A stretch of DNA of 24,501 nt from positions 1 through 24,501 of the IMG/VR virus record IMGVR_UViG_3300032322_002317. One strand, 5' to 3'. Source of the DNA: a virus. Under the pieces are notes generated by a model. That model made no database searches. It saw nothing but the letters and a program-made list of their open reading frames with translations, and was not told where the DNA came from. Below, piece by piece: positions 10,295-18,184 of this stretch (position 1 is the first letter of the stretch; each line of letters starts with the position of its first letter). Made by a program: the position numbers and the translations under genes.

Positions 10295-11197
10295 TTATAG
10301 CTCTCCTACCGCCGCCCTAAGTCTGAGCTTTCCTGATTTTAATAACTGACCAATTCTAGACTTACTCAACTGCATCTCGTCCGCAACCTCCTGCAATCCT
10401 TTTTCCTTCACCACAATCTCTTCCAAAACATATCGCTCCTTCTCTGGTAGCTCTTGCATCGCAGCGGCGACCATCTGGTGGTCTTTGGACAAAGGGACAG
10501 ATCCGGGAGGATGGTCGCCGATAGCAGCGCCTGAGGTGTTGAGTGGGGGTAGGTCGTCCTCGGGGGGATCGTCCGCCGCTAACAGGTCACCCAGGCTGCT
10601 GCCCCCATCGACACTGGGACGGTCCAAGCTGACGACTTCCGTTAGGGCGTAGCGCTGGTGTATCAGGAGAATCCGCTCGACGCTGATCCCAGCAAAGTTT
10701 GCCAGCTCCTCAAGAGAGGGTTTGCTGCCAGTCCTTGACTCCACCTCCTGGCTATGTCGCTGAACCTTGTTGAGAGTCTCGTAATTGTTAATAGGGAGGC
10801 GGATTGTCCGCCCTTGGTTGTGGAGCGCCCTGGTAATCCCCTGACGGATCCACCAGTAGGCGTACGTCGAGATGCGGTAACCCCGAGCAGGGTCGTAAAG
10901 CTCCAGACCGCGCATTAACCCGATATTACCCTCCTGAATTAAATCGGAGAATTCAAGCCCCTTGTGTTGAAACTTTTTCGCTATGGATACCACCATGCGG
11001 AGGTTCGTCTTCACCATCGCGTTCATACTGTGGCGACCTCGCTTCTCTAGAGTCCGTGCCGAAGCCGCCTGTTCTGGATAGATATGCGGGTGCAACCATT
11101 CATGAATACGGCGGCAGTGGAGAAGCTGGGCTTCCTCACATAAGATGGGGTGAAGCCCCACTTCCTGCATGTAACTATGTAGTTCGGCGTTAGCCAT
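10295..11197 (-). CDS. Sigma70-family RNA polymerase sigma factor (group 2-like)
   Basis: This 300-residue protein has the core of a primary-type sigma factor. Region 2 (NLRMVVSIAKKFQHKGLEF then DLIQEGNIGLMRG, with ISTYAYWWIRQGITRAL) covers core binding and -10 recognition and melting. A region 3-like segment (RLPINNYETLNKVQR and onward) follows, and region 4 at the C-terminus (ELPEKERYVLEEI ... LQEVADEMQLSKSRIGQLL) recognises -35. It lacks a long region 1.1, like cyanobacterial group 2 sigmas. An acidic Pro-rich linker (near 205-240) between regions 3 and 4 is unusual. It lies last in a leftward phage operon, just upstream of the tandem TTGAC promoters. It may redirect host polymerase to element promoters (inference). 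Confidence 0.92.
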   Translation of the reverse strand: MANAELHSYMQEVGLHPILCEEAQLLHCRRIHEWLHPHIYPEQAASARTLEKRGRHSMNAMVKTNLRMVVSIAKKFQHKGLEFSDLIQEGNIGLMRGLELYDPARGYRISTYAYWWIRQGITRALHNQGRTIRLPINNYETLNKVQRHSQEVESRTGSKPSLEELANFAGISVERILLIHQRYALTEVVSLDRPSVDGGSSLGDLLAADDPPEDDLPPLNTSGAAIGDHPPGSVPLSKDHQMVAAAMQELPEKERYVLEEIVVKEKGLQEVADEMQLSKSRIGQLLKSGKLRLRAAVGEL

Positions 11198-15475: not shown

Positions 15476-18184
15476 ATGGCTGCTAATCGCCGCAACGACT
15501 CAGGCGACCTTGAAGCGTCTGAAGGCAAGGCGCTGCCGAAAGGCAGTGCCAGAGAGATGTTTGACAAGAGGGTCTTTCCTGAGGATTGGGCCCTGATCCC
15601 AGTCGCCGGGAAGGACACATTCCACAAGGGCTGGACGGACACAAGGATCGAGCGGAAGAACTTCCTGTCCACGCTGGTCATGGACAGTAGGTATCGCGGG
15701 ATCGGTGTTGTGACCGGAGCCCTGTCTGGAGGGCTAATCGCCCTGGACATCGACGGGCATGAGGCGGATGCCAGGTACAAGGCGATCTCGGGGGAGGAGT
15801 ACCTGCCCTATGGGGAGGAGACGACGATGTCGTGGACTTCGGGGAAGCCGGGGCGGAGGCAGTTGCTCTGGCGAGTACCGGAGGCCCTGGTCCCGCAGTT
15901 GAGCCATGTAATCTCGCTGATCCTGCTGGGGGACGGGGTCTGGTGGAGCGGAAAGGGGCGGCAGAACGAGGATGATCCACAGAACCGAGCCCCAAAGGAG
16001 GAGTTGGTGCTGCGGTTTAACCGGTGCATGTCGGTATTGCCAGGAAGCCCTCACCCGGACACTAAGCAGCGTTATCAATTCCTGCAGTACAACGGTGGGA
16101 AGCCTGCAGAAGCTCCTGAATGGGTGCTTGGTGTTCTGCGGGCCCAACTGAAACCGGCTGAGTGGCTGTCTCAGGACGACAAAGACGAGATAGGGTCCGA
16201 GGTAGGTAGAACATTAGTCCCGCCTCGACAGTTGCGGGGGTGGTTCTTCAAGGATGAGGTGCAGAAGAAGCTGCAACCGAGGCTGACCGATCTAGTGTTT
16301 AAGCACTCAGTATTTGATAAGTATGGCTGGGAAGAACGGGGAGGGAGCAAGCCGCAGTTGATGAATGGCTGTCCTTGGCATGAGAGCAGCAGCGGAACTT
16401 CGTTCCAGGTGAATGCGGAGAATGGCTGCTGGGATTGCAAGAGTTGCGGGGTTGGTGGGGATACTCTCGACTTCATCCATAAAATAGAGACCAATGACAT
16501 GTACGCTTCCCGGCCTACTGGGTCGGAGTTGGAGCGATACATCAAGCCGATTGCGGAGGCGCTTGGCTATCGGTATCCAGAGGATCTTCTGATCGTCCAG
16601 AAGACGACTGATGTTCCTAGGGAGATCATCTCTGGGGTTGAACTGCTTGTAAGGGCAGAGAAGATCATTAAGGAAGTGAGGGATCCGGCTGAGCAGTTTA
16701 TTGCGTTGTCGGATCTTGCGGACATGACCGGGCGGATGCGGTTGACTCCGACGAAGATCAAGGAGCTTGTGACAAGGCACAAGCAGTTCACAAAGAACAA
16801 AGAAATCGGGTTGCTTAGGGATAAGGACTGGAGGAAGGACGTCTCCCCGGAGGAGCACATTATTCCTGGCTTGATCCGACGTCCGTCTCAGGTCCTTCTC
16901 CATGCTCGGGGTGGTGTCGGTAAGACGGAAACGGCCATCGCTTTGGCCAAAGCCATTGGTACGGGGTCGTCCATCAAGATCCGTGGGATCGAGGTGCAGT
17001 GCAGGCAGGGGAATGTTTTGTGGATCTCCAGCGACCAGAACAAGTCCCGGTTGGATGCTCAGTTGAGCGCTCAGGATATTACTGAGGCGAATTCGGACTG
17101 GTTCCACTTTGTGGAAAACTGGAAGACGGACCTTCCCCGAGAACTGGCGGAGATTATCAGGAAAGTTGAGCCGGTGTTGGTTGTGATTGACAGCTTGGCT
17201 TCATCGCAAGATGAAACCGGGGTAAAGGAGAATGAAGCGGAGTACGCTGCTCCGCTTTATGCGCTCTCTGTCAACAATGGAGACCTGAGTTCCGATTTTG
17301 GCTTCCCTTCTTGCGCTCTCCTCTGGATTCACCACAACACCAAAGACGGGACGAAGTTCCGGGGGACGGATCGCATCAATAACGCTGTTGATGAGACCTG
17401 GGAGTTGAAGGATCTGTCAGTTGAACAGGAAGCCACCTTCGGTGTGAACTCCCGGCTGATGCAGATTGGCAAATCCCGGTATGACCGGAGCGGGGACCGG
17501 ATGCTGATCCAGCGGGATCTGGAGTTGAACTACAGCATCGAGGATCTGACTCCGCTCCTGGAGAGGGAGGGGGTGAACCGGACTGGGGACATCAGCCCCC
17601 GGAGCCTGGTGTTGGCTGCGGTGACGGACTCGGGGGAAGAGGGGGTCACGCCGAAGGCGATTCGGGAGTTCGTCATGCACAGGATGGAGGGAGCTGGACA
17701 GGAGGATTTCCCATCAAGGACAGCGATCTGGAAGCACCTTGCTGCTTGGGAGAGAGCCGGGATGGTGGAGAAGGTCGGGATGGCCGCTTCGGATGTTGGG
17801 CAGGGAGGGCGCCCCACTATTCGCTACAAAGTGCCTCGCGGGGAGAGATCGAAAGAGGGGGGTACAAACCTTGATTGGGACGACCAAAACACTTGGGGGG
17901 AGGGCTTTTTGAGGTTTGTTACCGGTTTGTTACCCCACCCCAAAAACAGCAGGGGGGTAACAAACCTCCCCGAGGTCGAAGAGGGTGACCTACCTGACTC
18001 CGGGAGGTTTGTTACCAAGGGGCCTGCAGAGGGCGAAAAAGGGCAGGGGGTAACAAACCTCCCCCCTGCCCCCGAGGGTGATCTGCCCCTGTCGGGAGGT
18101 TTGTTACCCCATTCTTCGGCCCACCCCCGCGAGGGGATGGCTGAGTGGCTGAACGCCTTCGGTGGAGGATCAACCGATTCGTGA
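15476..18184 (+). CDS. Prim-Pol / zinc-finger primase fused to RepA-like helicase
   Basis: This 902-residue replication protein has four parts. Residues ~20-200 form a bifunctional primase-polymerase domain (GIGVVTGALSGGLIALDIDG, with the DxD metal motif near 89-91). Residues ~280-340 are a CHC2-like zinc finger (Cys299-x2-His302, Cys321-x2-Cys324, then GGDTLDFI). Residues ~455-690 are an AAA_25/RepA-type hexameric helicase with Walker A GGVGKT (479-484) and Walker B VLVVIDS (Asp572). Residues ~700-790 form a winged helix (RTAIWKHLAAWERAGMVEKV). The last ~110 residues contain a repeated GVTNLP...EGDLP...SG unit coded over a cluster of iterons. It likely unwinds and primes at its own gene. It opens the rightward operon. 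Confidence 0.9.
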   Translation: MAANRRNDSGDLEASEGKALPKGSAREMFDKRVFPEDWALIPVAGKDTFHKGWTDTRIERKNFLSTLVMDSRYRGIGVVTGALSGGLIALDIDGHEADARYKAISGEEYLPYGEETTMSWTSGKPGRRQLLWRVPEALVPQLSHVISLILLGDGVWWSGKGRQNEDDPQNRAPKEELVLRFNRCMSVLPGSPHPDTKQRYQFLQYNGGKPAEAPEWVLGVLRAQLKPAEWLSQDDKDEIGSEVGRTLVPPRQLRGWFFKDEVQKKLQPRLTDLVFKHSVFDKYGWEERGGSKPQLMNGCPWHESSSGTSFQVNAENGCWDCKSCGVGGDTLDFIHKIETNDMYASRPTGSELERYIKPIAEALGYRYPEDLLIVQKTTDVPREIISGVELLVRAEKIIKEVRDPAEQFIALSDLADMTGRMRLTPTKIKELVTRHKQFTKNKEIGLLRDKDWRKDVSPEEHIIPGLIRRPSQVLLHARGGVGKTETAIALAKAIGTGSSIKIRGIEVQCRQGNVLWISSDQNKSRLDAQLSAQDITEANSDWFHFVENWKTDLPRELAEIIRKVEPVLVVIDSLASSQDETGVKENEAEYAAPLYALSVNNGDLSSDFGFPSCALLWIHHNTKDGTKFRGTDRINNAVDETWELKDLSVEQEATFGVNSRLMQIGKSRYDRSGDRMLIQRDLELNYSIEDLTPLLEREGVNRTGDISPRSLVLAAVTDSGEEGVTPKAIREFVMHRMEGAGQEDFPSRTAIWKHLAAWERAGMVEKVGMAASDVGQGGRPTIRYKVPRGERSKEGGTNLDWDDQNTWGEGFLRFVTGLLPHPKNSRGVTNLPEVEEGDLPDSGRFVTKGPAEGEKGQGVTNLPPAPEGDLPLSGGLLPHSSAHPREGMAEWLNAFGGGSTDS
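17861..18108 (+). repeat. Iteron cluster, candidate replication origin inside the primase-helicase gene
   Basis: Six exact copies of GGTAACAAACC or its complement GGTTTGTTACC occur, plus one ten-base variant. They start at 17861 (variant GGTACAAACC, forward), 17913 and 17924 (reverse, abutting), 17956 (forward), 18006 (reverse), 18049 (forward) and 18098 (reverse). Several copies extend to GGGGTAACAAACCTCCC. Part of the array is a ~93-base tandem duplication. Lambda likewise carries origin iterons inside its initiator gene O. Confidence 0.75.
18169..18180 (+). promoter_or_regulatory. Operator-like motif at the end of the primase gene
   Basis: ATCAACCGATTC matches the motif at 1626-1636 and lies just upstream of a promoter candidate (18195-18224) and of an RHH regulator gene. 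The palindromic TGATCA follows at 18182. Confidence 0.35.

Follow-up and report, generated by a model that had tools for sequence, protein, structure and literature searches.

The 24.5-kb viral record analyzed here (the window, meaning the whole stretch at its full length) raises the question of what a cluster of short repeats in both orientations is doing inside the coding sequence of a replication protein. We conclude that the seven repeats are very probably sites for the winged helix of the protein in whose gene they lie and that together they most likely form the replication origin of the phage. The window is viewed as a cyanobacterial phage carrying its probable replication start site within the gene for the protein that reads this site.

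The repeats lie at the 3' end of a gene whose 902-aa product is composed, in this order, of a Prim-Pol domain, a CHC2 zinc finger, an AAA_25 (RepA-like) helicase, a winged helix and a low-complexity tail:

15476 to 18184, plus strand: replication protein gene, 902 aa (open reading frame; Pfam PF09250, PF01807, PF13481; PHROGs DNA polymerase/primase)
15581 to 16123, plus strand: Prim-Pol domain, aa 36-216 (PF09250, E 1.8e-15)
16358 to 16498, plus strand: CHC2 zinc finger, aa 295-341 (PF01807, E 1e-07)
16841 to 17350, plus strand: AAA_25 RecA/RepA-like ATPase-helicase domain, aa 456-625 (PF13481, E 1.3e-14)
17597 to 17830, plus strand: predicted winged-helix domain, aa 708-785 (AlphaFold2 model, H1-H2-H3-beta hairpin)
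17717 to 17755, plus strand: recognition helix, aa 748-760, with variable T749 and W752 (helix 3 of the model; predicted reader of the iteron 5' half)
17768 to 17830, plus strand: wing beta-hairpin, aa 765-785 (strands of the model; predicted reader of the iteron 3' half)

The AlphaFold2 model of the winged helix is of moderate confidence (mean pLDDT 71), and its Foldseek matches were the winged helices of Fur/Nur and Orc1/Cdc6; comparison of the winged-helix sequence with the PDB gave weak matches only, the best being TnsB (E 0.009). The Prim-Pol gene is followed in the window by genes for a Dda-like helicase, a family-A DNA polymerase and an integrase. Relatives of the protein were found in phage contigs and in elements integrated in genomes of Synechococcus, Cyanobium and Vulcanococcus. 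The terminase, portal, head protease and tail genes in part of a 64-kb related contig show that these are tailed phages. The window also bears a phage-borne sigma-70 family factor (regions 2-4) at 10295-11197 on the minus strand.

As the initial annotation had described, the 11-base repeat GGTAACAAACC occurs in six exact copies and one degenerate copy, in both orientations, at 17860-18108, in the part of the gene that encodes the tail:

17860 to 17870, plus strand: iteron 1, degenerate, GGGTACAAACC, two mismatches or one A deleted
17913 to 17923, minus strand: iteron 2, exact GGTAACAAACC
17924 to 17934, minus strand: iteron 3, exact GGTAACAAACC, abutting iteron 2
17956 to 17966, plus strand: iteron 4, exact GGTAACAAACC
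18006 to 18016, minus strand: iteron 5, exact GGTAACAAACC
18049 to 18059, plus strand: iteron 6, exact GGTAACAAACC
18098 to 18108, minus strand: iteron 7, exact GGTAACAAACC
17860 to 18108, no strand: whole array, probable replication origin, three units of about 93 nt, each an inverted iteron pair
17968 to 17988, and again near 18071-18088, plus strand: second element inside the pair, CCCCGAGG followed by a CGA/GGGTGA stretch (recognized by eye)

One of the three inverted pairs has an extra iteron copy. Outside the array, the next-best matches to GGTAACAAACC in the 24.5 kb had 2 mismatches. When the window was simulated 100 times with an order-2 Markov model, no exact 11-mer clustered in more than 2 copies (both strands, 300 bp), compared to the 6 observed. 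The array has a period of 93 nt (31 codons), seen as 79% identity over 42 nt between 17953-17994 and 18046-18087. The duplication of about 93 bases noticed at the outset thus stands as a period, the repeat unit being one inverted pair within an architecture whose positions are conserved, and falls as a sign of recent tandem growth. Array growth by tandem duplication was not borne out, spacing and copy number being largely stable within clades.

The second element is not confined to the window. A CCCCGAG-type sequence and a CGA-containing stretch between paired plus and minus iterons were also seen in L080, L081, L086, L090, L126 and L131, and the CCCCGAG-type element recurs in distant relatives, in coding and non-coding arrays alike; the CCCCGAGG family was also the output of the motif finder for L031, L102 and L105. 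Two flanking sequences were noted as well: a GCGTGCGTTG-type sequence 5' of the first iteron in L080, L081, L086, L090 and L131, in coding and non-coding settings, and an alternating CACGCGCGCG-type sequence 3' of the array in L081, L086 and L131.

Among the closest relatives, GGTAACAAACC itself is nearly absent, with one exact copy in L001 and none in L002-L004. These proteins are 90% (L001) and 82% (L002-L004) identical to that of the window, and their arrays keep the positions and orientations of the window array with a different sequence, GGACACAAACC in L001 and GGTTGCAAAAT in L002-L004, the repeat being replaced in most or all copies. In these relatives all or most sites have thus shifted together to another sequence. 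The initial annotation had held that absence of the repeats from close relatives that keep the protein would speak against its reading; because of this concerted change such a test would have misfired, since the exact 11-mer is nearly gone while a different repeat occupies the same places. When the window was compared to L001 and L002, the iterons showed no higher substitution rate than the remaining tail (Fisher p 0.67-0.73), so that our claim rests on the concerted identity of the copies and not on their rate of change.

Nearly every relative (proteins 37-90% identical) was found to harbor a two-orientation array of its own. The 63 scored loci gave about 30 consensus sequences (32 strings, some of which differ just by an undetermined base). 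Motif scores were mostly 4-8.5, compared to mostly 2.5-3.5 for shuffled sequences; some members scored weakly. The motif search gave no clear array in L031 and L106, and few or degenerate sites only in L102, L105, L124 and L132. A common plan consists of six sites in the order + - + - + - (three inverted pairs) with mirror-symmetric spacing, for example, 41,32,38,31,42 in L081, L090, L093 and L094, whose sequences differ, 42,31,37,31,42 in L131 and 41,32,25,32,42 in L130. All listed sites lay inside the initiator ORF in 57 of the 63 scored loci, and 4 loci were mixed. In L086 and L131 the array is located entirely 3' of the stop codon, indicating that it is the DNA that is conserved and not the peptide. 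Among individual loci, L222, whose wing type lies outside the predictions described below, has the array GGAACAAAA, and L133 has a repeat, TGATTCGATCA, that is itself nearly palindromic, unlike those of other loci. L245, a second match in Synechococcus BO 8801, is a shorter 403-aa helicase/winged-helix frame with 7 copies of the two-orientation repeat CGCACTTATT 250-500 nt past its stop. L128 and L129 are two integrated elements of one genome, Vulcanococcus limneticus LL, with cores 95.6% identical and different repeats; L128 adjoins tRNA-Pro and an integrase 44% identical to that of the window. Near L128 and L129 we noted tRNA-Pro, tRNA-Ser and restriction or methylation genes, and two members each were also present in genomes G014 and G277.

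A tblastn search of cultured phages with the window protein gave no match, and with L080 the sole match was S-LBS1 (L136). In this phage, TGCCTAACCT occurs 17 times, in both orientations, in the stretch immediately after the Prim-Pol gene (MG271909.1, 34236-34641), a number that may be inflated, as about 255 nt are repeated at the end of the record, possibly as a terminal repeat or an assembly effect.

In an unsupervised scan of the whole protein, we compared repeat differences with protein differences in every scan window of 8 columns, corrected for overall divergence. For the 5' half of the repeat, the top scan window over all pairs was aa 747-754, in the recognition helix (r 0.83; best core window, 0.76), and for the 3' half, the top region in near pairs was aa 769-784, in the wing (r 0.76; best core window, 0.505). 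In the near-pair scan, helix and 5' half ranked below some core windows. Permutation within clusters left the association of wing and 3' half intact (r 0.79; 0 of 5000 permutations reached the observed value), and that of helix and 5' half, which is weaker and involves few changes, gave r 0.56 with 3 of 5000 reaching the observed value. The crossed associations were weak (-0.08 and 0.18). The top covariation windows are thus the parts that the predicted fold places at the DNA.

Pairs of relatives point in the same direction. In L090/L122 and L022/L026, the helix is identical, the wing has changed, and of the repeat the 3' half alone has changed. Conversely, window/L001, L088/L095 and L128/L129 show changes in the helix and in the 5' half, the 3' half being unaltered. 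Within the helix segment aa 744-764, T749 and W752 are the only residues that differ between the window and L001, being F/A in L001 and Q/G in L002. The core wing motif, GGRPT or KGGRPST, is largely kept in the helix-change pairs, and their wings differ at 4 of 18 residues in L128/L129, 7 of 22 in window/L001 and 8 of 21 in L088/L095, for which reason the latter two are not pure helix-only pairs. Among the wings, xD-K goes with TTGC, Q[R/N]-[K/R] with TTCA, xK-[T/A]P with TCGT and KGGRP with AAACC. Predictions of the 3' half from the wing, fixed in writing before new loci were fetched, were correct in all five new loci with a covered wing, namely, L160, L169 and L172 (xD-K, TTGC) and L190 and L192 (QR, TTCA). 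Overall, these comparisons strongly support recognition of the sites by the DNA-binding domain of the initiator itself. To judge from the sequences, the DNA sites and two protein surfaces predicted to contact them change together across dozens of relatives, like a lock and key that are re-cut.

L090 and L122 illustrate a natural swap. Their cores are 99.9% identical and their helices identical, while the wings differ at 10 of 20 residues and the sites in their 3' half; at the DNA level, identity is 96-100% in both flanks compared to 44-76% over most of the stretch from wing to array. The recurrence of the L122 cassette in L169, an independent assembly, speaks against a chimeric contig, and L075/L076 resembles the wing-change pattern of L022/L026, with one difference in the helix segment. 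Wing and array thus move as one cassette. Since the wing-coding DNA and the array together fit within about 400 bp, protein specificity and DNA site would be exchangeable in a single recombination event, and such an exchange would allow a phage to switch its origin specificity and to escape cross-talk with relatives already resident. We give even chances to the broader proposal that wing or helix plus array constitutes an exchangeable specificity cassette under diversifying selection, swapped for compatibility or for escape from origin cross-talk, with about 30 lock-and-key pairs; the selective force behind the exchange would be incompatibility. Together with the covariation and the arrays beyond the stop codon in L086 and L131, the swaps strongly support the view that the winged helix reads an iteron array lying next to it in its own gene.

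What the array does once bound is most likely to serve as replication origin. In each site, the 5' half would be contacted by the recognition helix and the 3' half by the wing, and several subunits on the three inverted pairs would recruit their fused helicase and Prim-Pol primase domains to the array, where the helicase would open the DNA and Prim-Pol would prime. Helicase loading, opening and priming at the array are proposed from the domain content and from lambda, P4 and RSF1010 (PMC6022878, PMC4234260). No marked AT-rich unwinding element was found beside the arrays in 40-nt bins around them, and we therefore do not file the array as a classical iteron-plasmid origin, only as one working like it. 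The GC skew, suggested earlier as a check on the origin, turned out to be uninformative: it is mostly of one sign, G-rich on the Prim-Pol-coding strand, even where genes run opposite (window 0-9 kb), and no sign switch was seen at the array in the window and five related contigs (L003, L002, L122, L123 and L100), so that long-term bidirectional forks starting from the array are not supported. Of the original proposal, reading of the array by the winged helix is strongly supported and the origin role is probable; a marked AT-rich element and a skew switch that might have accompanied an origin were not seen.

Two explanations we regard as negligible. The repeats could stem from selection for repetitiveness in the protein tail, or from tandem duplication by chance, and the tail is indeed of low complexity and the period corresponds to 31 codons. 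However, the copies occur in two orientations and are read in all three frames (GVTNL, RFVT and GLLP), and protein-preserving codon shuffles lost the array, reaching at best a score of 4.75 or less compared to 6.00 observed; protein and codon use thus do not explain it, in agreement with the initial annotation, and this explanation is already contradicted by the persistence of the L086 and L131 arrays in non-coding DNA. Equally remote, and likewise already contradicted, is the possibility that the array is an inserted repeat element or belongs to a known RNA or CRISPR family. An Rfam match to CRISPR-DR31 was obtained, but it scored below the family cut-off (22.4 bits versus 35), the spacer structure is absent and array positions are conserved among relatives. 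A dispersed repeat was rejected, the extended 15-mer GGTAACAAACCTCCC being found just once in each of 10 viral contigs, relative L001 among them.

The remaining alternatives concern function. The array could be bound by the winged helix for control or exclusion (titration or handcuffing) or for partition, with replication starting elsewhere, and since covariation speaks to binding and not to function, this unlikely option draws on the same data, as well as on the missing skew switch and AT-rich element. In lambda, an infecting phage can be kept from replicating by iterons carried on a plasmid (PMC3349717), an effect that also hints at a reason for specificity to diversify. Against it, exact copies elsewhere in the searched contigs are rare (one stray, in G004), no second array stands out, and the placement, at the gene of an initiator that joins primase and helicase to its binding domain, is in keeping with the known origins of lambda O, P4 alpha and pRN1. 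It is less probable still, and in our view improbable, that the inverted repeats act mainly as single-stranded stem-loops, i.e., as priming or assembly sites as proposed for pRN1, copy identity being secondary. The strand does fold far better than shuffled sequences (z -5.4), and pRN1, whose protein is of the Prim-Pol/SF3/winged-helix type, depends on a stem-loop of 100 nt immediately downstream of the gene (PMC4234260). Stems, however, need complementarity within a pair only, yet the copies share their sequence across pairs and change together, which makes a stem-loop function alone less likely; in addition, the repeat sequence tracks helix and wing residues, and there are extra same-strand copies (17913/17924). 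An origin bound by its own initiator remains our preferred reading.

A report of this system was not found in a literature search, most subscription journals being outside its reach. In-gene iteron origins and iteron-initiator pairs are already known. The variants that, so far as we could tell, are new comprise the union of all functions in one gene, an array with mirror symmetry, an exchangeable cassette of wing and array, and the helix/wing code. With primase, helicase, site-reading domain and sites in a single gene, and about 30 natural site-protein pairs, near-isogenic swaps included, it becomes testable which winged-helix residues determine which bases and by what route phage origins acquire a new specificity while avoiding a nonfunctional intermediate. 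With the arrays, probable origins can also be located in many cyanobacterial phages that have not been cultured, and the cassette reading, if true, would amount to a natural winged-helix recognition code in picocyanobacterial phages and integrated elements.

The lambda origin is composed of four 18-bp iterons, each itself an inverted repeat, and an adjacent AT-rich region, and lambda O is neither a primase nor a helicase. As in the window, these iterons lie inside the coding sequence of the initiator (PMC6022878). The likeness to lambda O drawn initially thus applies to the placement of the sites and not to the initiator, which is not homologous: the window protein had no match to the lambda O family in Pfam and is a Prim-Pol/AAA_25 protein. 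The window sites are also shorter (11 bp), with alternating orientation and without a marked AT-rich element found beside them, and primase, helicase and binding domain all reside in one protein. P4 alpha has an SF3 helicase and origin repeats outside its gene. Like the window protein, it combines primase, helicase and winged helix in one polypeptide that binds origin repeats, with a primase of the bacterial type (Toprim) (PMC4234260), whereas the window combines Prim-Pol with AAA_25 and has its repeats in the gene tail. ORF904 of pRN1 likewise contains Prim-Pol, helicase and winged helix, and its origin lies directly 3' of the gene, but this origin is a stem-loop without iterons, specific binding by its protein was not detected (PMC4234260), and the helicase of the pRN1 family is SF3, in contrast to the AAA_25 domain (PF13481) of the window protein, which has no SF3.

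S-LBS1 resembles the relatives of the window in having two-orientation repeats at the Prim-Pol gene, but just the Prim-Pol part is detectably similar, and its array is intergenic and of another sequence. Specificity classes are known from lambdoid phages, through the work of Furth and Yates on lambda-phi80 and lambda-82 hybrids as cited in PMC6022878, and in geminiviruses iterons vary among closely related viruses and correspond to the cognate Rep (PMC12548392), although the proteins are unrelated to that of the window and geminiviruses replicate by rolling circle. RSF1010 encodes the helicase RepA, the primase RepB' and the iteron-binding initiator RepC (PMC4234260); the helicase domain of the window protein has an AAA_25 family match. 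In RSF1010 these functions reside on three separate polypeptides, whereas in the window they are fused in one gene that also holds the sites.
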